This document shows positions 29,619-41,879 of a stretch of DNA of 64,000 nt, in pieces. Within the stretch, counting starts at the first letter, position 1; every line of letters starts with the position of its first letter. The translations under genes were made by a program, and so were the position numbers. The notes below the pieces were generated by a model. It did not search any database, was not told the origin of the DNA, and worked only from the letters and a program-made list of their open reading frames with translations. Source of the DNA: Magnetococcales bacterium WMHbin3. Its GTDB lineage: Bacteria; Pseudomonadota; Magnetococcia; Magnetococcales; Magnetaquicoccaceae. The stretch spans positions 1-64,000 of the forward strand of contig PDZX01000003.1 in NCBI GenBank assembly GCA_002753185.1, written 5' to 3'.

Positions 29619-29897
29619 TCATGGCAATGTCGGCATCGCATCCGCCGCAGCCAGCAATTTTGCGTTCGGTTCTGGTGGATTTTCCAGAAGTGCGAGAACG
29701 CGCAGGCTGTCGCGTTCGGAAAGCTCGACTCGTTCGGCTTGATCGATCACGGCCTTTGCGGCTTGTAATGCGTTTTGTAAGACAAAGTCCGTCAGGTCAG
29801 TATGCGTCAGCGCGACGGCACGCATCAGCGTGGCCTTGTCGTCGGGATGAATCCGCAGGGACAACCTGTTGTTGGCGCCAACCATTGCTCGTGACAT
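29619..29897 (-). CDS. DUF1778 antitoxin (TacA-like), no toxin partner
   Basis: 92 aa. The N-terminal ribbon-helix-helix (NRLSLRIHPDDKATLMRAVALTHTDLTDFVLQNAL) should bind DNA as a dimer. The C-terminal LSERDSLRVLALLENPPEPNAKLLAA is the toxin-neutralising tail typical of DUF1778 antitoxins paired with GNAT toxins (TacT/AtaT). AAGGAG lies just before the ATG. The usual toxin gene downstream is missing: the next gene is the PilZ-like gene on the opposite strand, 34 bp away. It sits between the two 38-bp hairpin repeats, so it may have arrived or lost its partner through them. Confidence 0.85.
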   Translation of the reverse strand: MSRAMVGANNRLSLRIHPDDKATLMRAVALTHTDLTDFVLQNALQAAKAVIDQAERVELSERDSLRVLALLENPPEPNAKLLAAADAMPTLP

Positions 29898-29969: not shown

Positions 29970-30007
29970 GTACGGGCGGGGTCTCCCCCGCCCGGTTGTG
30001 ATCCATC
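29970..30007. repeat. 38-bp hairpin repeat, copy 2
   Basis: Same element as copy 1, same orientation, same length. The 9-bp stem CGGGCGGGG / CCCCGCCCG is perfect with a 4-base loop (TCTC on plus, GAGA on minus). Two stem positions differ from copy 1 and pairing is kept in both (A-T becomes G-C, G.T becomes G-C). It starts 10 bp past the octaheme cytochrome stop codon on that gene's strand, where it could also act as a terminator. Confidence 0.75.
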
Positions 30008-30016
30008 GCCAGGAGT

Positions 30017-32164
30017 TTACCGCAGTTCCGGCAGGTTGCGCAGTTCTTCCGCCCGTTCCGGCGGATACCCCAGGGCGACGAAGTCGAGGATGCCGCTCTT
30101 GGCATGGCAATCCTTGCAGCCGCGACCCTCTTTGCGAATGCCGTGGTTGATCATCAGCGAACCCATCTGTCGCATCCAGTGGGCCTCGACGTTTTTCAAG
30201 TTGCCTTCCTTGTCCAGCGGGTATTCCGCCTGCCATTTCTCCACCCCGAAGTAGCGCATGAACTCGTCCATCATGAAGAGCTTGAACGGGGTCTGGTACA
30301 TGCGCCGGATGATCGGATGGCCGATGGCTCTCTTCACCGAGGCCAGCGGATCGCCTCCCTCGTAGTAGGACGGATAGTCGAAGGGGAGGATCATCGCGCC
30401 GAAGGGTCCCTGGTTGTTCATGTCCTCGTACATGATGGCGTTGAACACCTTGAAGGGATAGATCTTGCTTTGTCCCTTGGCCATGATCGGGCGGATCTTT
30501 TCTTCGATCATTTTCTTGCGTTTCTCCAGCATCTCCGGGGAGAGGGTCGAAAGGGGATCGGTGGCCTCCTTGACATATTTTTCCACGTCGAGGTCCGGAT
30601 AGGTTTTTGCCAGTTCCATGGCAGATGCGCGGATGGCCTCGATGGCCATGGGGTCCTCGATTCTGGCCAGTTGGCGCATCAACGGGTTGTAGGAGCCGTC
30701 GCCCACCGGGTTGTCGCCCAGGGCATTGGCCAGGAAGGTGCCGTTGCCGTTGAACCACAGGAAGGTGAAACCGCGTCCCGCCAAGCCGCTCTGAAAGACA
30801 TCCTTGAAGACGAAGGCCCCTTCCTCCTCGTTCCAGACCGGATGGATCCAGTCGCGCAGCACGGTGTTGTCGTCGCGCAGTTTCTTGATATGGCACGCCT
30901 CGCAGGAGACGCGGGCTACATGGCCGTTGAGCAGCGCCCGATCCTCCGGGTCTTTCACGTGGGGGGCCGCCGTATGGCAGGACTCGCAATCGACCTTCCT
31001 GCCGGGCAGGTCGTTGGCCACCAGGTCAACACCCATGGTCCCGCGCGGGATCTTGTGGCCTTGCGGTTTGTGGCAGTCGGTGCAGGCCATGCCGGCGGCG
31101 GCGTGGACATCGTGATCCGGCTGGAACGACGTGCCCCGCTTGGCGCCCGGATGGAGCAGCCGTTTGTTCTTGTGGCCCAGATTGTCCGGGGCCGCGCCTG
31201 GCGGCAGGGATTTTTCCAGGTCGCCGCCCATGTTGTGCTGATGGCAGTACAGGCAGGTTTGGCTGGTCGGCGGGCCGACGGTGAGGGCCGCCTTCATGGA
31301 GCGGTCCTGGTTCCAGCGGCGACCGTTGCCGTCCTCGATCACGTAGCGTTCGTTCATGTCGTAGGTGGGGCTGTGGCAGATGAGGCAGTCGATGCCGGCC
31401 TTGGCGCTCGCCGGGGCGTTGTGGAGCGGCAGCATCTGTTCCGTGGCCGGGTGGTAGCCGCCGCCGATGTGGCATTGCCCGCACCCTTCGCTGCGGGTCT
31501 CGGTGGCGCCGTTGGCATGCGCCGGTTTGGTGGTGACCAGATCGGCCCAACCGGTCCAGGTGAAGGAGCCGGGCACGCCGCAGGCGCGGTCGATCTTGCC
31601 CACCGGAATCGGCCGGACCCCGGCGCCGTTGACCTGCCGGCCATCGAAGCCGTAGGTGGAAAAGCCGCCGGAACTGCTCTGGAACTTGAAATGGACCGAC
31701 TCCACCACGTCCTGCATGGTGTCCACCTCCTGGATCCGGCCCTGTTCGTCCGTGACCTTGATGGTCTCGTGGCAGCCGAGACAGGTTTCCGGTCCCTGGT
31801 ACTGGCGGATGCCGGCCTTGCGGAAGTACTGGATGTGCGGGAAGGGCGCCTTCTTGGCGAAGGAGCCGGTCTTCATCAGCAGGTTGATCTTCAGGCGCCG
31901 GGCAAAGGGGACATCCTCCTCGGCGGTCTGTGCCAGGGCGCGCTCCTCGCGGTGGGCGCGGGTCAGGGAGTCGGCCAGGGTTTCGAACTCCCGGTCGCTC
32001 AAGGCCACGCTGTTGGCATAGGTCAGGGGGGCGTTGGTCACCCCGATGTAGCTTTCCAGCAGGCCGGGATAGATCCAGCGCACCACGCCGATGGTCACGC
32101 CCAGGCCCAGCAGCAGGGCGATGCGTTTGATGTGCCGTGCGGGATGAAAGGTCGTGGCGTTCAT
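30017..32164 (-). CDS. Octaheme c-type cytochrome, tetrathionate reductase (OTR)-like
   Basis: 715 aa. An N-terminal signal anchor (IALLLGLGVTIGVV) places it in the periplasm. There are eight CXXCH motifs, at Cys128, 228, 260, 304, 361, 393, 421 and 683. The segments CGQCHIGGGYHP, GIDCLICHSPTYDM, CLYCHQHNMGGDLEKSL, DHDVHAAAGMACTDCHKPQGHKIPRG and VDCESCHTAAPH follow the layout of OTR-family octaheme proteins, which reduce sulfur or nitrogen oxyanions. Oddly, a heme-free stretch of about 260 residues separates heme 7 from heme 8. It overlaps the cytochrome b gene by ATGA and ends a four-gene operon. Substrate is unproven; electrons probably come from or go to the quinone pool through the cytochrome b. 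Confidence 0.85.
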   Translation of the reverse strand: MNATTFHPARHIKRIALLLGLGVTIGVVRWIYPGLLESYIGVTNAPLTYANSVALSDREFETLADSLTRAHREERALAQTAEEDVPFARRLKINLLMKTGSFAKKAPFPHIQYFRKAGIRQYQGPETCLGCHETIKVTDEQGRIQEVDTMQDVVESVHFKFQSSSGGFSTYGFDGRQVNGAGVRPIPVGKIDRACGVPGSFTWTGWADLVTTKPAHANGATETRSEGCGQCHIGGGYHPATEQMLPLHNAPASAKAGIDCLICHSPTYDMNERYVIEDGNGRRWNQDRSMKAALTVGPPTSQTCLYCHQHNMGGDLEKSLPPGAAPDNLGHKNKRLLHPGAKRGTSFQPDHDVHAAAGMACTDCHKPQGHKIPRGTMGVDLVANDLPGRKVDCESCHTAAPHVKDPEDRALLNGHVARVSCEACHIKKLRDDNTVLRDWIHPVWNEEEGAFVFKDVFQSGLAGRGFTFLWFNGNGTFLANALGDNPVGDGSYNPLMRQLARIEDPMAIEAIRASAMELAKTYPDLDVEKYVKEATDPLSTLSPEMLEKRKKMIEEKIRPIMAKGQSKIYPFKVFNAIMYEDMNNQGPFGAMILPFDYPSYYEGGDPLASVKRAIGHPIIRRMYQTPFKLFMMDEFMRYFGVEKWQAEYPLDKEGNLKNVEAHWMRQMGSLMINHGIRKEGRGCKDCHAKSGILDFVALGYPPERAEELRNLPELR

Positions 32165-32787
32165 GATTTTTCCTCCGTCAGGGTGGAACCGAAGACCATT
32201 TTCTTGAACTCACCGAGGAGCGTCTCACCGGCGGTGGCCAGATAGAGATGCCCGATGAGGAACAGCGTGAGAAACAGCCCGATAAGATAGTGCAATACCC
32301 CGGCGATCCAGAGGCCGTCCATGCCCAGCACCCGATCCGGGGTCAGGCCATCGAAGAAGAAGGCCAGCCCGGAGAGGATCAGCAGCGGCATGGCGCCGTA
32401 CATCACCATCAGATAGGTCACCTGTTGCAGCGGATTGAACTTGGCGTCGCGGGTGGCGGGAAAGGGGTGGGGTTGCCCGCGGAAGATGCCGATCCCGTAG
32501 AAGCGCCCCTGGATCAGCAAACGGACCAGGAGGCCTTGCGGGCGCGGGCGATAGTGGATGCCGTTGCGGCTCCAAAGGTTGCCGATCACGAACGCCAGCC
32601 AGCCGCATCCCAGCAGGATGCCGAACAGATTGTGTACCACCCGTGCCGTCTCGAAGGGGATCAGCGGCGCCCCCGGTTCCGCGAAATGGAGGCTGACCCC
32701 GGTGACGAGCAGCGCCAGGAAGGAGAGGGCGTTGCTCCAGTGCCAGACGCGGATCCAGACCGGATAGAGTTCAGTGGTGGTGTTCAT
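32161..32787 (-). CDS. Di-heme cytochrome b membrane subunit (PhsC/b561-like)
   Basis: 208 aa with four to five hydrophobic helices. The first helix is preceded by the VWIRVWHWSNALSFLALLVTGV motif with a probable heme-ligand His; further His ligands are likely in VVHNLFGILLGC and GVLHYLIGLFLTLFLIGHLY. This pattern fits cytochrome b subunits that link the quinone pool to periplasmic oxidoreductases, such as PhsC and formate dehydrogenase gamma. It overlaps the heptaheme gene by 17 bp upstream and the octaheme gene by ATGA downstream, so the three products are likely one electron-transfer unit. Confidence 0.88.
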   Translation of the reverse strand: MNTTTELYPVWIRVWHWSNALSFLALLVTGVSLHFAEPGAPLIPFETARVVHNLFGILLGCGWLAFVIGNLWSRNGIHYRPRPQGLLVRLLIQGRFYGIGIFRGQPHPFPATRDAKFNPLQQVTYLMVMYGAMPLLILSGLAFFFDGLTPDRVLGMDGLWIAGVLHYLIGLFLTLFLIGHLYLATAGETLLGEFKKMVFGSTLTEEKS

Positions 32788-33715
32788 GGGGGGTGCTCCT
32801 TGCGCTCAGGTAACGGGCCAGGCCGTGGCCGGCGACACCGGCGAGGGTCAGGGCGACCAGGACGGCTCCACCCCAATCCAGCCAGGGATGGCGGGTCATG
32901 CCGATGATGTAGGCGTCGTTCATCACGATGGAGTGGATGAACCCGGCGGTGCGCTGTTCATGGCGGATGCGGTGGCGGTAGAGTTTCGCGGCCAGCAGGG
33001 AGTTCCTGCTGTGGCACGCCTCGCAGGCGCGCACCGCGTCGTTCTTGCCGACGATGAAGTGGTGTTGTTTGTATCGGCCGCGGGTGTGGCATTCGATGCA
33101 GCGCACCTTGCCCCAGTGGCGTTCCGTCTCCGGCAGCCAGGCGTGGGTGTCGGCGAGGGTGGCGAAGAGGCGGCCGGTCTGGTTGCGGATTCCTTCGCTG
33201 GAGTCGTGGCAGCGGCGGCAGGCGGCATTGTCCTGCGCCACCACGCCCGGCAGGTCGGCGCCACTCTGGCCGGAGATGGCGCGGAAGTCGTGGGGGTCAT
33301 GGCAGGAAAAGCAGGTGAAGGTCTCCGGCATGGCCTGATAATGGATGCTGCGCTCGAAGCTTTTATTGATGGCCTCGAACCGTTCCCTGGGAAAGGCTTG
33401 GCTCTTCTCATGGCATTTCAGGCATTCCAGGCGTTCCCGTTTCGCCTCCTGGAAGTGGGGAAAGTCATCCAGGCCGGTCCCGTGGCAGTCGCGGCAGCTC
33501 AGTTTGCGGTGTTCGGAGCGGGCCATGGCCTTGGCATCGATGGCCAGGTTGCGCACGCCGCCGGTTGTCGGGTCCTGGTAGGCCAGGGTGGCCATGCCGT
33601 GGCAGCGCAGGCATGCCTTGTCGGAAGGCGGATCGGCGTATGATACGGGTGAGAGTATTGAAAATAAAAATAATACAGCACTGGTGAAAAAAAGCCTGAG
33701 CGGGATGGCGTTCAT
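32771..33715 (-). CDS. Membrane-anchored heptaheme c-type cytochrome
   Basis: 314 aa. A signal peptide with likely cleavage after SYA (residue 27) is followed by seven CXXCH motifs (Cys35, 74, 98, 135, 166, 206, 231). A C-terminal membrane helix (GAVLVALTLAGVAGHGLA) and a short His-rich tail (PHEHHH) follow. The family is not recognised precisely; the layout resembles multiheme electron-transfer subunits such as NrfB- or CymA-related proteins. Start 33715 is chosen; upstream in-frame codons precede a signal peptide and are unlikely. It is the second gene of the operon, after the ankyrin gene. Confidence 0.85.
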   Translation of the reverse strand: MNAIPLRLFFTSAVLFLFSILSPVSYADPPSDKACLRCHGMATLAYQDPTTGGVRNLAIDAKAMARSEHRKLSCRDCHGTGLDDFPHFQEAKRERLECLKCHEKSQAFPRERFEAINKSFERSIHYQAMPETFTCFSCHDPHDFRAISGQSGADLPGVVAQDNAACRRCHDSSEGIRNQTGRLFATLADTHAWLPETERHWGKVRCIECHTRGRYKQHHFIVGKNDAVRACEACHSRNSLLAAKLYRHRIRHEQRTAGFIHSIVMNDAYIIGMTRHPWLDWGGAVLVALTLAGVAGHGLARYLSARSTPHEHHH

Positions 33716-33802
33716 GGCGGCTCTCGGCGAAGGTCCGGTTGGCCGGGGGCCGCCTGCCAAATGGTCAGGTGGCCCCCGGGCTTGTTGGTGTGACCGGGTG
33801 GT

Positions 33803-34768
33803 TCATGCGTGCGTGTCGGGGATCAGCAGTCTGTTCATGGCCGAGCTGGCGCCCTTGCGCAGATAGTCCTTGGCGGTTTTGCCGCTCTGGTCCACCAGGT
33901 TGGTTTGGATGCCGCGTTCCATGAGCAGCCTGGCGGTATCCAGGTAGTTGTAGCGGGCCGCGAACATCAGGGCCGAGGTCCCTTCGTAGTTGACGGCGTT
34001 GATGTCGGCGCCGCGGTCGAGCAGCATGCGCACGATTTCGGTGTAGCCTTTTTCCGCCGCCGCCAGCAGGGCGGTGCAGCCGCACTCGTGGCGGAAGGTG
34101 AGATTGGCGCCGTTGTCGAGCAGGGTGGCGACGATGGCCGTGTGACCCGATTCGGCGGCGATCATCAGCGGGGAGTAGCCCTGTTTGTTCTGGACGTTCG
34201 GGGTGGCGCCTGCCGCGAGCAGTTCCTTCACCACCGGGATGTGTCCCCGTTTGGAGGCGATGATCATCGGGCTGTCCCCCCGTTTGTCGATGGCGTTGAC
34301 ATCGGCGCCCCGCTCGATCAGCACCTTGAGCATCTCCTCGAAGCCGTACTGCGCCGGCCCGAAGAGCGCGGTCTGTCCCGACCGGGTGGCGATGTTGGGG
34401 TTGGCTCCGGCATCGAGCAGCATGCGCACGATGGTGTGGTCGTTCCAGCGGGTGGCCAGGTTCAGCGGGGTGAAGCCGGAGGGATCGATGGCGTTGACGT
34501 CGGCGCCGGCCTCCAGGAGCACCCGCACCACCTCGGCGTGACCGTTGTCCGCTGCCCAGGAGAGGGGGGAGATCTTCAGGTTGCCATGGCTGTCCACATG
34601 GACGCCCTTGGCGAGCAGGGCGCGCACGGTAGCGACATCCCCTTCCATCGCGGCGACCGACAAGGCGTTATCGACTTTTTTCGTGTCCCGGTCGCCGATA
34701 CCGCTCATGCCCAACACGGCCGCAACGGCCAGAGCGGAGAGGGTGATTGCGATTTTCTTGGCGTTCAT
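33803..34768 (-). CDS. Exported ankyrin-repeat protein, first gene of cytochrome operon
   Basis: 321 aa. A signal peptide-like N-terminus (KKIAITLSALAVAAVLGMSG) is followed by about eight ankyrin repeats from residue 35 on, with regular cores such as GHAEVVRVLLEAGADVNAID and GHTAIVATLLDNGANL. The strong AAGGAG ribosome binding site precedes the ATG at 34768. Ankyrin repeats bind proteins, so this may chaperone, assemble or regulate the cytochromes; in other bacteria periplasmic ankyrin proteins accompany catalases or cytochrome c peroxidases. The near-consensus sigma-54 promoter lies 84 bp upstream. Confidence 0.85.
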   Translation of the reverse strand: MNAKKIAITLSALAVAAVLGMSGIGDRDTKKVDNALSVAAMEGDVATVRALLAKGVHVDSHGNLKISPLSWAADNGHAEVVRVLLEAGADVNAIDPSGFTPLNLATRWNDHTIVRMLLDAGANPNIATRSGQTALFGPAQYGFEEMLKVLIERGADVNAIDKRGDSPMIIASKRGHIPVVKELLAAGATPNVQNKQGYSPLMIAAESGHTAIVATLLDNGANLTFRHECGCTALLAAAEKGYTEIVRMLLDRGADINAVNYEGTSALMFAARYNYLDTARLLMERGIQTNLVDQSGKTAKDYLRKGASSAMNRLLIPDTHA

Positions 34769-34851
34769 GGTGGTTCTCCTTGGTGTGATCCGGTTGTTCC
34801 AGCGGGTCTGGTGTCCCGCGATGGTTGTTGGTATGCTTTGTTGTTTATAGC

Positions 34852-34866
34852 GCACGGGACGTGCCA
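34852..34866 (-). promoter_or_regulatory. Sigma-54 promoter of ankyrin-cytochrome operon
   Basis: On the minus strand TGGCACGTCCCGTGC matches the consensus TGGCACG-N4-TTGC at all but one fixed base (T to G in the -12 box). The invariant GG and GC have the required ten-base spacing. It reads toward the ankyrin gene and gives a leader of about 70 bases. A sigma-54 activator gene is divergent just upstream. Confidence 0.8.
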
Positions 34867-34922
34867 GGGCGGCAAGAAAAAAAATTTGTTTTTTATTAGT
34901 TGGTTGCATAACAGATCCCCCC

Positions 34923-35002
34923 GTGTCGCGTGCTGGAACACCGTTTGGGACATGTCCGGGTGGAACAGAATGGGACATTGTGTGTCAGTGTCGCGAGACA
35001 CT
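34923..35002. promoter_or_regulatory. Cluster of GACA/TGTC palindromes, probable activator binding sites
   Basis: The region holds GGACATGTCC (34948-34957, perfect), AGTGTC-GCGA-GACACT (34987-35002, perfect arms), a second TGGGACAT at 34971-34978 repeated from 34946-34953, and a GTGTC...GGAACAC site at 34923-34941. They lie roughly 60 to 150 bp upstream of the sigma-54 promoter, the usual place for enhancer sites, and directly before the activator gene, which they may autoregulate. Confidence 0.6.
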
Positions 35003-35036
35003 TTTGTTAACTGCTCCGCAACCGTGGAAAATCGAG

Positions 35037-36788
35037 ATGAGACACTCCGTGCCATTGCATGCCGTTCTGTTCGCGGGCGTCGGTTCCCATTTGGATGCCC
35101 GTTTGGGAGATGTGCTGGCCGCCATTGCCCCCGTGGAGCGGGTGGGGGCGCTCGATGATGCGGGGGCCGTGATCAAGCGTCAGCCGGTGGGGGTGATCGT
35201 GACCGAGATCCCGGCGGGCAAGAGCGGGATGACACAGTTGCGCGCCTTTGCGAACACCGGTCCTCGTGTTCCGCTGGTGGCCATCGATGGCGAGGAGCGG
35301 GTGACGCTGGTGGAGCCTCTGGAGGAAGTGACGGCTTCCGCCAGGCAGACCCGCTGCGCCTGGGAGGAGTTGCCGGAGAGGATCAAGGGGTTGTTGCAAT
35401 TGGCCGGGTTGCGTCTGGAGGCCACGTTGCCACGCGAGATCCTGGAGTGTGTCGCGGACAATGTGCGCGAGGGGGGATCCGTGGTGGATCGGGGGATGGT
35501 GGTCACGCGGGTCAATCCGGCGGCCATGAACGCCTGCCGTTTCGTGGGCGTGGTATTGGGACACTCCATGCTGGAGCAGAAGCGGGGATGTATTCCGGAA
35601 ATCGCCCTGGTGTTGCAGCGGGTCATCGCCACGATGAAGGCGGAGTTGAACGTCCATCTGCGTTGCGCCATTCCTGGCGAGGAGAAGACGGAGATCCATC
35701 TCACCGCGACGCCGCTGATGGATTCGGTGGGGTGTTGTCATGGCGCCGTGGCGGTGATTCTGGAGCGGGCCAGTCTGGCCGCCGTGCCGGAGGAGAGCCG
35801 CAACAAGCGGCGGACCTTTCATCGCCTGATCGGGGTGAGCGAGAGGATGCAGGAGGTATACGACCTGATCGAATCCCTGGCCAACAAGGACACCACCACC
35901 CTGATCACCGGGGAGTCGGGGGTTGGCAAGGAGTTGGTGGCTGAGGCGCTCCATTTCAAGGGGCGGCGTGGCCATGGTCCGTTGGTCAAGGTCAACTGTG
36001 CGGCCTTGCAGGACAATCTTTTGGAAAGCGAGTTGTTCGGGCATGTCAAGGGGGCATTCACTGGCGCGGTGCGTGACCGGCCTGGGCGTTTCGAGGTGGC
36101 CAGCGGGGGGACCATCTTCCTGGACGAGATCGGGGACATCTCCATGTCCATGCAGACCCGTCTACTGCGGGTGCTCCAGGAGCGGGAGTTGCAGCGGGTG
36201 GGGGATTCCCGGACCATCAAGGTGGACGTGCGGGTGATTGCGGCCACCAATCGGGTTCTGGAGGAGCAGATCCGGTTGGGTCGTTTCCGGGAGGATCTTT
36301 ATTTTCGTCTCAACGTGGTGGAGATCAACGTGCCGCCGTTGCGCAAGCGGTTGGAGGACATCCCCTTGTTGGTCAATCACTTCATTCAGAAGTTCAATCA
36401 GAAGTACGAAAAGGGGGTTGTCGGGGTACAGGATGGGGTGTTGGAGCTGTTTTTGCAGTACCCGTGGCCGGGCAACATCCGGGAGATGGAGAACGCCGTC
36501 GAGCATGCCTTCGTGGTGGGGGGGGTGAATACCATCCGGGTCAAGCATCTGCCCAAGAATCTGGTCTTGCAGCGCCCCTGCGCGGACCCGGAGGTGGTCG
36601 AGGCCGAAGCCGAGAACACCTGCTGCCTGCCTTCCGCCCCGGTCATTCCGGCGCCGGCTTCCTCGGAAAAGGAGTCCTTGTTGCGCACTTTGGAAGAGGC
36701 CCAATGGAAGAAGAAAAAGGCGGCCAAGTTGCTCGGCATGAGCCGCAGCACCTTGTATCGCAAATTGGAAAAATATGGGATCCGGTGA
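35037..36788 (+). CDS. Sigma-54-dependent transcriptional activator (PAS, AAA+, Fis HTH)
   Basis: 583 aa from the ATG at 35037. The N-terminus (about 1-110) resembles a receiver but I cannot see the phospho-Asp. A PAS-like region (about 125-250) carries several cysteines (NACRF, RGCIPE, LRCAIPG, VGCCHG) that could sense redox or bind metal. The AAA+ domain has Walker A GESGVGKE (about 291), the sigma-54 contact loop GAFTGA (about 338), and Walker B GGTIFLDEIGD. A Fis-type HTH closes it (AAKLLGMSRSTLYRKLEKYGI). It is divergent from the cytochrome operon, with palindromes and a sigma-54 promoter between them. Confidence 0.9.
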   Translation: MRHSVPLHAVLFAGVGSHLDARLGDVLAAIAPVERVGALDDAGAVIKRQPVGVIVTEIPAGKSGMTQLRAFANTGPRVPLVAIDGEERVTLVEPLEEVTASARQTRCAWEELPERIKGLLQLAGLRLEATLPREILECVADNVREGGSVVDRGMVVTRVNPAAMNACRFVGVVLGHSMLEQKRGCIPEIALVLQRVIATMKAELNVHLRCAIPGEEKTEIHLTATPLMDSVGCCHGAVAVILERASLAAVPEESRNKRRTFHRLIGVSERMQEVYDLIESLANKDTTTLITGESGVGKELVAEALHFKGRRGHGPLVKVNCAALQDNLLESELFGHVKGAFTGAVRDRPGRFEVASGGTIFLDEIGDISMSMQTRLLRVLQERELQRVGDSRTIKVDVRVIAATNRVLEEQIRLGRFREDLYFRLNVVEINVPPLRKRLEDIPLLVNHFIQKFNQKYEKGVVGVQDGVLELFLQYPWPGNIREMENAVEHAFVVGGVNTIRVKHLPKNLVLQRPCADPEVVEAEAENTCCLPSAPVIPAPASSEKESLLRTLEEAQWKKKKAAKLLGMSRSTLYRKLEKYGIR

Positions 36789-37060: not shown

Positions 37061-37408
37061 TCATGCGGCATGAAGCGGAATAATCTCCATGCGCAATCGA
37101 TCCAGCATGGCATCCTTGGCGGTTTCCATATCGTACCTGGTTTGCAAGCCCAGCCAGTATTCCTGGGATTGATCGAAAAACAAACCCAGCCGCAAGGCCA
37201 TTTCCGCCGTCACCGGACGATGGGCATGGAGGATATGGCTGATCCGCATGGCCGAAGTACCAATCGATTTGGCCAGCCGATATTGACGGATTCCCAGTTC
37301 ATCCATGATCTCCTTGAGAAACGCGCCAGGATGAATGGGTGGGATATGCTCCCCGGTGGCGATCTCCTCCAGGTCGAGATGTTGAATTTCCCCCATACGA
37401 ATGGTCAT
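37061..37408 (-). CDS. HigA-type antitoxin (XRE family), no HigB partner
   Basis: 115 aa. PPIHPGAFLKEIMDELGIRQYRLAKSIGTSAMRISHILHAHRPVTAEMALRL is the classic HigA family signature, with a helix-turn-helix, and FDQSQEYWLGLQTRYDMETAK follows. AAGGA lies before the ATG. HigB toxin is normally encoded just upstream, but here the hybrid kinase gene is upstream and a DUF1640-like gene downstream. It may be an orphan regulator or the survivor of a lost module. Confidence 0.85.
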   Translation of the reverse strand: MTIRMGEIQHLDLEEIATGEHIPPIHPGAFLKEIMDELGIRQYRLAKSIGTSAMRISHILHAHRPVTAEMALRLGLFFDQSQEYWLGLQTRYDMETAKDAMLDRLRMEIIPLHAA

Positions 37409-37436: not shown

Positions 37437-39355
<1,919 letters not shown>

Positions 39356-39359
<4 letters not shown>

Positions 39360-41767
39360 GGCGCAATGGTTCTCATATTCAGCCAGAGGTGCATCATGGA
39401 CAACAGTTTGTTCGTGTCCACGGGTTTGGAGAGATAATCCGACGCCCCGGCCTCCAGACAGCGCAGCCGCTCTCCCGGCAGCGCCCTGGAGGTCAATACC
39501 AGGATGGGCAGATCCCGCCAGGCGGGGCGACGGCGGATTTCGTCCAACACGGCATAGCCGTTTCGATCGGGCAGCATGACATCCAACAGGACGAGATCGA
39601 CCGGCGCTTCCGCCTGCAATCGTTCCAGGGCCACATGACCGTTTTCCGCCATGATCACCTCGCCCCCTTTCTCCTCCAGCAGGTTGGTCATGGCGAAGAC
39701 ATTGCGGATATCGTCATCCACCAGCAGGATGCGTTTGCCTGCCAGGGTGTGTTCGGGCGCGGCAGGTAGCGGTTGCGGGGCGGGTGTGGCATTGGGCGCG
39801 AGATCCGGGGCGGCTTCGGCGATGGCGGCCAGAAAACGACCGCACTCCAGCGAGAGCGCCCCCTGGCCCAGGGTTGGTGGGATCACCTGCGCCTCTTCCG
39901 GCAGCGCCAGCCCGGCGGCCAGGTCGGCGCGGGTGGTCAGATACAGGATCGGGCAGCGGGGCCGCCGCACGGCCTTGCGCAGATGGAGCAGCAGGTTGTT
40001 GGTGTCCTGGTCGGGCAACTCCCCGCTGATGACGATGGCCAGGGGCTGAAAATGGTGGGCCAGAAACAGGGCCGCTCCCCGGTCCCCGGCCACGATCACC
40101 CGCAAATCCCGCGCGCCGGCGAGTTCGCTGATGTGGCGCATCCGGTCGAACTCCCGGCCCACCACCAGGATGGCGTGGTCGTCAGGGCGGAGCGTACGTC
40201 GGTCATCCCGCATGCCGTCGATTTCGTTCGTTTCGGGGGAAGGTGGCGCTTCGGTCTCCCGCATGGGCAACCAGAGGGTGAACACGCTGCCATGTCCCAC
40301 GGTGCTGACCAGTTCGACGCGACCGTTCAGCAGGTGGCTCAACTCCTGGCAGATGGTCAGTCCCAGGCCGGTGCCGCCATACTTGCGGTTGAGGCCGTCG
40401 TCGAGTTGTTTGAACGGCTCGAAGACTGCGGTCTGTTGATCGCCGGGAATGCCGATGCCGGTATCCTCCACGGCAATGGTCAGCCACTCCCCGTTTCCTT
40501 CCGGGCGTCGCGTGCGCAGGATGACCGTGACCTGTCCGGCGGGGGTGAATTTGATGGCGTTGGAGATCAGATTCTTCAGAATCTGCTCCACCCGCATCCG
40601 ATCCGTGTGGATGGCGTGGGGCAGGGGTTCCTCGAAGAGGATCCGGAACTCCAGCCCCTTTTCGCGCGCGACATGGGTGAACAGCCGTTCGAGATTGGAG
40701 GCCAGATCGGTCAACCGGATCGGGGTGTTGAAAATGCGGATGCGTCCGGCCTCGATGCGCGCCAGATCCAGGATTTCGTCGATGAGCGTCAGCAGATCGG
40801 AACCGGCGGCATGGATGGTGGAGGCGAACTCCACCTGCTTGTCGGTCAGATTGCCCGGTTTGTTCTCCCCGAGGAGACGCGCGAGAATGAGCAGGCTGTT
40901 GAGCGGGGAGCGCAACTCGTGGGACATGTTGGCGAGAAAACGGGATTTGTAACCGCTTTCTTTTTCCAGTTGTTCGATGGTGCCCCGGAGCACTTGTTGG
41001 TTGATGGCCAGGGTCTCGGCTTGCCGCCGGGTCTGATCGAGCAGTTTGCGGTTGGCCAGGCCTGTCTGCACGCCGGAGAAGGCGCGGGCGATGGAGTCGC
41101 CGATCCGTTCGAGGAATCCGGCATGCCATTTCTCGAAGGGGCGAACGGCCCCCAAGGCCAGGACGCCCTTCACCTGATCCTCGTGCAGCAGCGGCACGGC
41201 CAGGAGATGGTTGGGGACCACTTCCATGAGTTCGGCCTGCATGCGCAAGGAGTCGATGGGGGTGTTGGAGAGCCAGGTGAGCTTGCGATGCACCGCGATT
41301 TCGCCCAGGACCCCTTCCCCCGGTTGCAGGGTGCGTGATGGCGCCCGGTCGGGGAGGATCCCGTAGCTGGCGGTCAGATGGAGTTTGCCGTCCGTTCCCG
41401 CCAGGTAGAGCAGGCCGCTGTCTGCCGACATGTTGTCGGCCAGGCAGCGCAGGATGATCTCCCCCAACTCCTCCGGATCGGTCACGTTGCGCATTTTTTG
41501 TTGCGTTTCGACCAGTCCGTTCTGGATTTTCTGACGTGACCGCAACTCCCGCATGCAGGGGAGATGGAAGAAAACGATCAGGATCGCCAGATTCCAGACG
41601 ACCATGCCGAGCACGTGCGCCACCCTGGCCCATGCATGATCGTTTTCGAAGTGCGCCAGTCCGATCGTGGCCAGCGTCTCGCCCGCGCCCAGCAGCAGCA
41701 GGATCGCGACGAAGCGCGACAGCGTCGCGTGGCGGACGAGGATATCGTGCAGTGTGCGTCGGTTCAT
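39356..41767 (-). CDS. Membrane hybrid histidine kinase, GAF-HisKA-HATPase-pseudoREC-REC
   Basis: 803 aa from 41767; an ATG at 41824 is also possible. Two N-terminal membrane helices (FVAILLLLGAGETLATIGLA, VAHVLGMVVWNLAILIVFF) are followed by a GAF-type sensor (about 115-250), HisKA with MSHELRSPLN, and HATPase (NLISNAIKFTP, DTGIGIPG, GGTGLGL). Then comes a receiver-like region in which the phosphoacceptor is replaced (LAIVISGELPDQDT). A canonical receiver closes it (VDLVLLDVMLPDRNG). It is translationally coupled to the following hybrid kinase, suggesting a relay. Confidence 0.92.
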
Positions 41768-41879
41768 CTCACAGGTGTGCCCGGTTGGGTGCGGCAGGAT
41801 GGGAGCCGCGTGATCCCGTCTCATGCGGGACCATATTCACTCAATCGGGTGCCGGGATCAAGCGCCAATTGCATGCGCA

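Follow-up and report, generated by a model that had tools for sequence, protein, structure and literature searches.

A putative sigma-54-controlled operon in Magnetococcales joins an ankyrin-repeat protein to an OTR-like multiheme cytochrome module

What would an ankyrin-repeat protein do at the head of a cytochrome operon? This question is raised by a 64,000-nucleotide stretch of DNA from Magnetococcales bacterium WMHbin3 (contig PDZX01000003.1, positions 1 to 64,000; hereafter the window), in which four minus-strand genes encode an ankyrin protein, a heptaheme c-type cytochrome, a cytochrome b and an octaheme cytochrome c, and a divergent plus-strand gene encodes a sigma-54 activator. The nearest named loci belong to Magnetococcales metagenome-assembled genomes (MAGs), which places the window in a Magnetococcales genome. 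A first-pass annotation had interpreted the locus as a self-contained, inducible respiratory pathway from the quinone pool to a periplasmic octaheme enzyme, and our analysis partly supports that interpretation. On balance, and with moderate confidence, we favor an inducible periplasmic reductase chain that runs from quinol to the octaheme and has a dedicated ankyrin partner. As judged from sequence, Magnetococcales would carry a switchable electron-transfer pathway whose terminal member is distantly related to the eight-heme reductase of tetrathionate and nitrite. The cytochrome module itself occurs widely and has a known enzyme fold; what is new is the putative Magnetococcales sigma-54 regulon that includes the ankyrin.

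All five genes were found in the overlapping or adjacent order first described (Table 1), with 7 CXXCH motifs in the heptaheme and 8 in the octaheme making up the 15 c-heme motifs that had been counted. The minus-strand genes are closely spaced, with an 87-bp gap followed by a 17-nt overlap between the heptaheme and cytochrome b genes and a 4-nt overlap between the cytochrome b and octaheme genes. Two starts were revised. A ribosome-binding site favors ATG 34768 for the ankyrin, whose listed open reading frame (ORF) extends to 34978, and a signal-peptide-like stretch follows ATG 33715 in the heptaheme, whose listed ORF starts at 33760.

Our sample of related genomes comprised 150 genomes, of which 48 are from the same order (Magnetococcales) and 102 are others. 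A pattern scan of genome contigs covered the best 80 of 201 octaheme relatives, which span Magnetococcales, Chromatiaceae, Thiomargarita, Bacteroidetes, Ignavibacteriae, Calditrichota, Poribacteria and others; 22 of these 80 lay on contigs already in the sample and were removed before counting. When loci with at least 2.3 kb of upstream DNA are considered, the heptaheme and cytochrome b genes precede the octaheme gene in 29 of 32 Magnetococcales loci and in 46 of 47 others (75/79 overall). The exceptions are L057, which has neither gene, and L068, L070 and L138, which have the heptaheme without cytochrome b; in the latter three the octaheme directly follows the heptaheme and no cytochrome b was found between them. 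Hosts of the triad outside Magnetococcales include purple sulfur bacteria, Thiomargarita, Bacteroidetes and Calditrichota, and two of the loci counted as others (L089, titled Alphaproteobacteria, and L091, Kiloniellales) cluster with Magnetococcales on the octaheme tree. Gene clustering of the 58 non-Magnetococcales loci revealed no extra triad partner shared by more than 7 of them, once frames antisense to the triad were set aside; the cluster found in 7 loci encodes, as judged from its first residues only, a hydrogenase. The heptaheme-cytochrome b-octaheme triad is an old module. In one MAG, cytochrome b and octaheme are joined in a single 1020-residue ORF (L066:8947-12009; L088 is the same contig), which could be an error. 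A second candidate fusion, L072, was dropped as a canonical OTR locus with a partial match.

Residue conservation within the triad is high. The cytochrome b scores 84.3 bits against a PF01292 gathering cut-off of 30.1, placing it in the cytochrome b561 family, and H16, H52, H166 and H180 are at least 95% conserved over 87 rows. Over 89 heptaheme rows, all 7 CXXCH motifs, 7 further His residues, and a His and an Arg at the C-terminal helix are conserved to at least 95%. The predicted diheme cytochrome b appears suited to accept electrons from quinol. The triad would be expected to join the quinone pool to an OTR-like enzyme, and it recurs in several phyla including cultured, testable purple sulfur bacteria.

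Octaheme relatives were detected in 37 of the 150 genomes at E 1e-10. In 36 of these 37, all within the 48 same-order genomes, the relative is the long form, which was absent from all 102 sampled genomes outside the order; the remaining match (G019) is only a stretch assigned to canonical OTR. An AlphaFold model built on a 74-row alignment reached pLDDT 81.9 and pTM 0.83, while an earlier one, based on 21 close sequences, was discarded for its low quality (pLDDT 51.4). A Foldseek search of the model against the PDB returned 1SP3 as the sole match under E 0.001 (E 1.7e-13, 19% identity). A pairwise hhalign comparison aligned the long octaheme profile with 40 canonical OTR rows at E 2.8e-50 and 24% identity, with the CXXCH motifs paired in order. 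By model and profile, the octaheme is a predicted member of the OTR fold superfamily, with the fold of 1SP3 and eight matching hemes. Ten residues are invariant in 79/79 long octahemes (H110, H158, H310, H338, H354, H370, H402, H415, H674 and K342). Six of these His residues (H110, H158, H354, H370, H402 and H415), together with K190, C195 and K572, align by column with conserved OTR residues; H338/K342 and H674 match OTR counterparts by place, not by column, and H310 has no counterpart. In OTR the active-site heme is held by a Lys (Lys153 in 1SP3). K342 is at most a candidate counterpart: both residues are situated between hemes 4 and 5, but they fall in different alignment columns.

The octaheme resembles OTR (Shewanella 1SP3, TIGR04315, Beggiatoaceae BOGUAY_2386) in fold, in its eight CXXCH motifs, in six extra conserved His residues in column and, going by place only, in having a Lys and a His in the stretch from heme 4 to heme 5. 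Canonical OTR likewise has an adjoining b-type cytochrome gene, in 17/21 non-Magnetococcales and 23/27 Magnetococcales OTR loci. The long octaheme differs from OTR, which has roughly 440-600 residues, by its length of 715 residues, its N-terminal membrane helix and its spacing of hemes 7 and 8, and by the heptaheme encoded alongside it. Within the order, canonical OTR is encoded separately (27 loci, 20 of 48 Magnetococcales genomes), with none found in the window genome; a search of that genome for NrfA also gave no match at E 1e-5.

Sigma-54 control of the operon, as inferred in the first-pass annotation, was supported by a recurrent promoter. A -24/-12 site at p≤0.05 was found upstream of the operon on the coding strand in 28 of 31 loci and on the opposite strand in 1 of 31; the loci without a match are L064, L065 and L066. 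For L053, L056 and L064 no activator bounds the far end, and the search region was placed by hand. In the window the site lies ~84 bp before the ankyrin ATG and none of 200 shuffles scored as well; as background, 35 of 2566 400-bp stretches of related loci reach its score of 19.2, true sites included. The consensus TGGCAC-N5-TTGCW gave 6 genome matches versus 3 in the control and was rejected, with no match at the operon because the operon site departs from that consensus. When dyads were counted in 30 intergenic regions, the promoter (14/30) and a GGACA/TGTCC palindrome (8-12/30) came out on top, as compared with a maximum of 3 in a single shuffled set. Among the matches listed for GGGACA-N3-TGTCCC in the window genome, the sole one free of mismatches lies at G000:C74:17698-17712 (L153), and may be a second activator target or a chance occurrence.

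The divergent activator had been described as complete. Its output half stood, as Pfam identifies a Sigma54_activat domain, an AAA lid and a Fis-type helix-turn-helix (HTH), which mark it as a probable enhancer-binding activator. In its input half Pfam finds no Response_reg match at E 0.1, and hence it is not assigned as an NtrC-type response regulator. In the ten activators scanned from the same locus, Response_reg is above cut-off in L051, L058, L063 and L070, weak in L054 (0.014), and not found in L045, L052, L055 and L066. It seems that the input of the activator changed while its output stayed. The activator is the divergent neighbor in 27 of the 29 Magnetococcales loci with enough sequence to judge, the exceptions being L053 and L064, and it was not found upstream of the 58 non-Magnetococcales loci. 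It would probably act on the operon. Both sigma-54 control and the ankyrin seem to have been added to the triad in Magnetococcales.

The ankyrin heads the operon in 21 of 31 judgeable Magnetococcales loci, the window not counted. Ten loci have the operon without it (L048, L058-L064, L068 and L070), and in five its presence was not judgeable (L043, L050, L057, L069 and L072). No ankyrin of the operon type was found in the upstream DNA of the 58 non-Magnetococcales loci, covered up to 9 kb each (<2.3 kb in 11), which agrees with its earlier description as an unusual lead gene for a cytochrome operon. An ankyrin ancestral to the operon was considered and rejected, since on the octaheme tree one change suffices if every non-Magnetococcales row, L089 with its short upstream sequence among them, is counted as lacking it; this count leaves out L043, L048, L050 and L057. 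The earlier annotation also described the protein as exported; the hydrophobic N-terminal segment on which this rests is present in the sequence, and export itself is probable.

A profile search located ankyrin orthologues apart from any module cytochrome in eight genomes of family f13, two of family f4 and one of family f1 (G016). L048 truly lacks an operon ankyrin, its orthologue being located elsewhere. On the ankyrin tree the unlinked orthologue branches within the operon ankyrins. The view of a self-contained four-gene unit therefore holds for the triad, which stays together, and goes too far for the ankyrin, which does occur apart, an outcome that the first-pass annotation had named as refuting. 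These unlinked genes nevertheless carry the same type of promoter: in all 11 from genomes without an operon ankyrin (L192-L202), a sigma-54 site scoring at least 19.2 lies at 78-138 bp, and most of them have GAGACA or TGTCTC repeats near -300. This is contrasted by 24 same-order control genes (9 before OTR or cytochrome b, 6 OTR-cytochrome b, 9 other ankyrins), in which the maximum score was 18.7 and none reached 19.2. Because the unlinked ankyrins have a strong sigma-54 site, the ankyrin and the cytochromes look like one regulon. A tally of ankyrin and long octaheme over the 48 same-order genomes gives 33 with both, 10 with neither and 5 with just one of the two (Fisher p 2.5e-6, kinship ignored; hand-compiled table, ankyrin threshold 340 bits). 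Octaheme only was found in G017, G034 and G037, and ankyrin only in G031 and in G009, where a broken contig starts the same operon.

We propose that the activator would bind GGGACA/TGTCCC-type sites and switch on the -24/-12 promoter. The diheme cytochrome b would then draw electrons from quinol, the membrane-anchored heptaheme would pass them on, and the OTR-fold octaheme would reduce a small acceptor. The ankyrin, co-controlled from the operon or from its own promoter copy, would reside in the periplasm or at the periplasmic face of the membrane and would serve the octaheme as a dedicated partner in assembly, maturation or docking. The respiratory pathway first suggested thus keeps its two ends, a diheme cytochrome b suited to quinol and a terminal OTR-fold octaheme, with its substrate and the action of the activator as its conjectural parts. 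By analogy, tetrathionate, nitrite or hydroxylamine are the leading acceptor candidates. The nearest assayed relative found, placed by description, is BOGUAY_2386, which as a partly purified fraction reduced tetrathionate in vitro at rates reaching 93 umol per min per mg, and nitrite at a lower rate (PMC6449678). At 582 residues and described as OTR-type, it was set aside as an orthologue.

Several observations weigh against this proposal. The predicted activator sites are degenerate in the window itself, and genome-wide GGGACA-N3-TGTCCC (≤2 mismatches) gave 278 matches versus 295 in the control; with no enrichment, the palindrome by itself does not define the regulon. L053 has no adjoining activator although its promoter site is present. 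Two unlinked ankyrins from genomes that also have an operon ankyrin (L203 and L204) lack the site, for 11/13 overall, and 4 of the 24 controls, all other ankyrins (L215, L217, L219 and L229), pass p 0.05 with a score of 18.7 (p≤0.023). These other ankyrins may be sigma-54 genes too, in which case the sigma-54 ankyrin regulon would be wider. G017, which is 96% complete, has the octaheme and no detected ankyrin of the operon type. The HxCGC motif is missing in 1 of 22 operon ankyrins and in 3 of 13 unlinked copies, and 4 of 10 other ankyrins carry it, so it is typical of the regulon and not confined to it. The octaheme scores 73 bits against a TIGR04315 cut-off of 375, outside the OTR subfamily proper (66-80 bits for the long octahemes listed for the order), its structural match to 1SP3 is loose (TM 0.62 by target, 0.40 by query, rmsd 7.5), and ~260 residues separate hemes 7 and 8; given these three features the octaheme may have a different reaction. 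Finally, the sampled genomes are mostly kindred MAGs, and the counts are not independent.

Ankyrins also recur at canonical OTR genes. Of the 27 Magnetococcales OTR loci, 5 were too short to judge and 22 had 1 kb or more of upstream DNA. Another ankyrin lies directly before OTR in 7 of these 22, forming ank-OTR-cytochrome b operons, a shorter ankyrin lies within 0.75 kb in 4, and 11 have none. No ankyrin precedes OTR in 21 non-Magnetococcales OTR loci over the 1.5 kb covered. The OTR-linked ankyrins come from two families only (f13 and f1), which points to few independent ankyrin-OTR events. No strong sigma-54 site was present in any of the six such operons tested (L207-L213, with L213 too short). 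The HxCGC motif, which sits in the hairpin of one ankyrin repeat, occurs in 2 of 7 full-length OTR-linked ankyrins. A periplasmic CGC pair suggests possible thiol chemistry, or metal or heme binding. Separately, in three Chromatiaceae loci among the 58 non-Magnetococcales loci, ankyrin genes with lipoprotein-like starts follow the triad at a distance of 0.6-5.4 kb and share its strand (L099:11669-12382, L130:5521-6252 and L118:16538-17221).

To our knowledge, assembly and docking factors of multiheme enzymes beyond the Ccm system are poorly known. Our partial view of the literature turned up neither an ankyrin assembly factor of this kind for c-type cytochromes nor a paper on the triad with an ankyrin. 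Ankyrin proteins in the service of heme enzymes have been described for catalases: C. jejuni Cj1386 binds heme, serves KatA and is termed cytoplasmic, a Leptospira ank gene lies upstream of katE in one operon, and P. aeruginosa AnkB (AnkB/KatB) is termed periplasmic (PMC11442138, PMC7567364). The likeness is by description and not by sequence, and the proteins described here differ in having c-type multiheme cytochrome neighbors, sigma-54 control and the HxCGC motif. We tentatively suggest, while regarding the full scheme as doubtful, that exported ankyrins, with an exposed HxCGC hairpin in the operon clade, act as partners dedicated to OTR-fold octaheme reductases, with a role in redox chemistry or in handling heme, and were recruited by Magnetococcales at both long-octaheme and canonical OTR operons and held in one sigma-54 regulon with the long-octaheme operon even when unlinked. 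Such a partner might keep heme-site cysteines reduced or deliver heme at the periplasmic face of the membrane. With the regulon evidence, a periplasmic ankyrin becomes a tangible candidate for a partner of multiheme enzymes.

Could the ankyrin instead be a passenger that shares the promoter region and is unconnected to the cytochromes? Its absence from the triad outside Magnetococcales, its location elsewhere in f13, f4 and G016, and the failure to find it in G034, which has the triad, would all fit, and octaheme and ankyrin could both track the same species tree. We nonetheless doubt this explanation in view of the strong sigma-54 site at each unlinked ankyrin from genomes without an operon copy, the co-occurrence across genomes (a test that ignores kinship), and the other ankyrins that precede canonical OTR genes. 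G034, moreover, lacks an ankyrin of the operon type, a promoter match and a neighboring activator all at once.

The chain itself could be a conduit from quinol to the periplasm and onward to other cytochromes or extracellular acceptors, with the octaheme as a wire and not an enzyme. A heptaheme and a cytochrome b under an inducible regulator resemble Geobacter CbcBA, whose CbcA is reportedly a heptaheme and whose regulator BccR is said to be a sigma-54 regulator; the CbcBA system reportedly has no OTR-fold octaheme and no ankyrin. The likeness is one of description: CbcBA is an inner-membrane quinol oxidoreductase induced when easier acceptors are absent (PMC12307469). We consider a conduit unlikely, as the octaheme resembles OTR in fold and in most of the conserved His residues and is peptide-rich (715 residues per 8 hemes), and as no partner gene beyond the triad recurred in more than 7 of the 58 non-Magnetococcales loci, antisense frames aside, in a survey with no search aimed at porins. 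The chain might also run in reverse, with the octaheme oxidizing, for example, hydroxylamine or a reduced sulfur compound and feeding the quinone pool. Octaheme folds can work in both directions, as in HAO, and many hosts are sulfur oxidizers (Chromatiaceae, Thiomargarita and a tubeworm symbiont). This direction appears improbable, since the triad also occurs in Bacteroidetes, Ignavibacteriae and Calditrichota genomes and the assayed relative BOGUAY_2386 was measured as a reductase (PMC6449678). An inducible reductase chain from quinol to the octaheme, with the ankyrin as its partner, remains the reading we favor.

Table 1. Features of the ankyrin-cytochrome locus in the window
Feature	Position	Strand	Basis
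Long OTR-like octaheme cytochrome c, 715 aa, N-terminal membrane helix	30017..32164	-	8 CXXCH; predicted OTR fold; under TIGR04315 cut-off
Cytochrome b561-type membrane subunit, four conserved His (two b hemes inferred)	32161..32787	-	PF01292
Heptaheme c-type cytochrome of 314 aa with signal-peptide-like stretch and C-terminal membrane helix	32771..33715	-	Conserved residues, 89 rows
Ankyrin-repeat protein, export-type N-terminus, 321 aa, H227-x-C229-G-C231	33803..34768	-	HxCGC in 21/22 alignment rows of operon ankyrins
Sigma-54 -24/-12 promoter TGGCACG TCCC GTGCG, expected start near 34840	34851..34866	-	Score 19.2 of 21.2
Putative upstream activator sites GGGACATGTCC, GGGACATTGTGTGTC, GTGTC-GCGA-GACAC	34942..35000	.	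GGACA/TGTCC dyad family
Divergent sigma-54 activator: degenerate-receiver-like N-terminus (by eye), weak PAS (below cut-off), AAA+, Fis HTH; ATG 35037 probable start, end at 36788	35037..36788	+	Pfam and neighbor counts
GC-rich hairpin CGGGCGGGG-GAGA-CCCCGCCCG, ~23 nt past the octaheme stop, possible terminator without a T run	29973..29994	-	By eye

The operon and its activator are flanked by antitoxin genes of the TacA1 type and the HigA type (window 29619-29897 and 37061-37408). Beyond the second of these, at 37437-41824, two large hybrid-kinase-like genes are convergent with the activator, of which the family scan covered the first only (37437-39359); they are a possible sensor pair.

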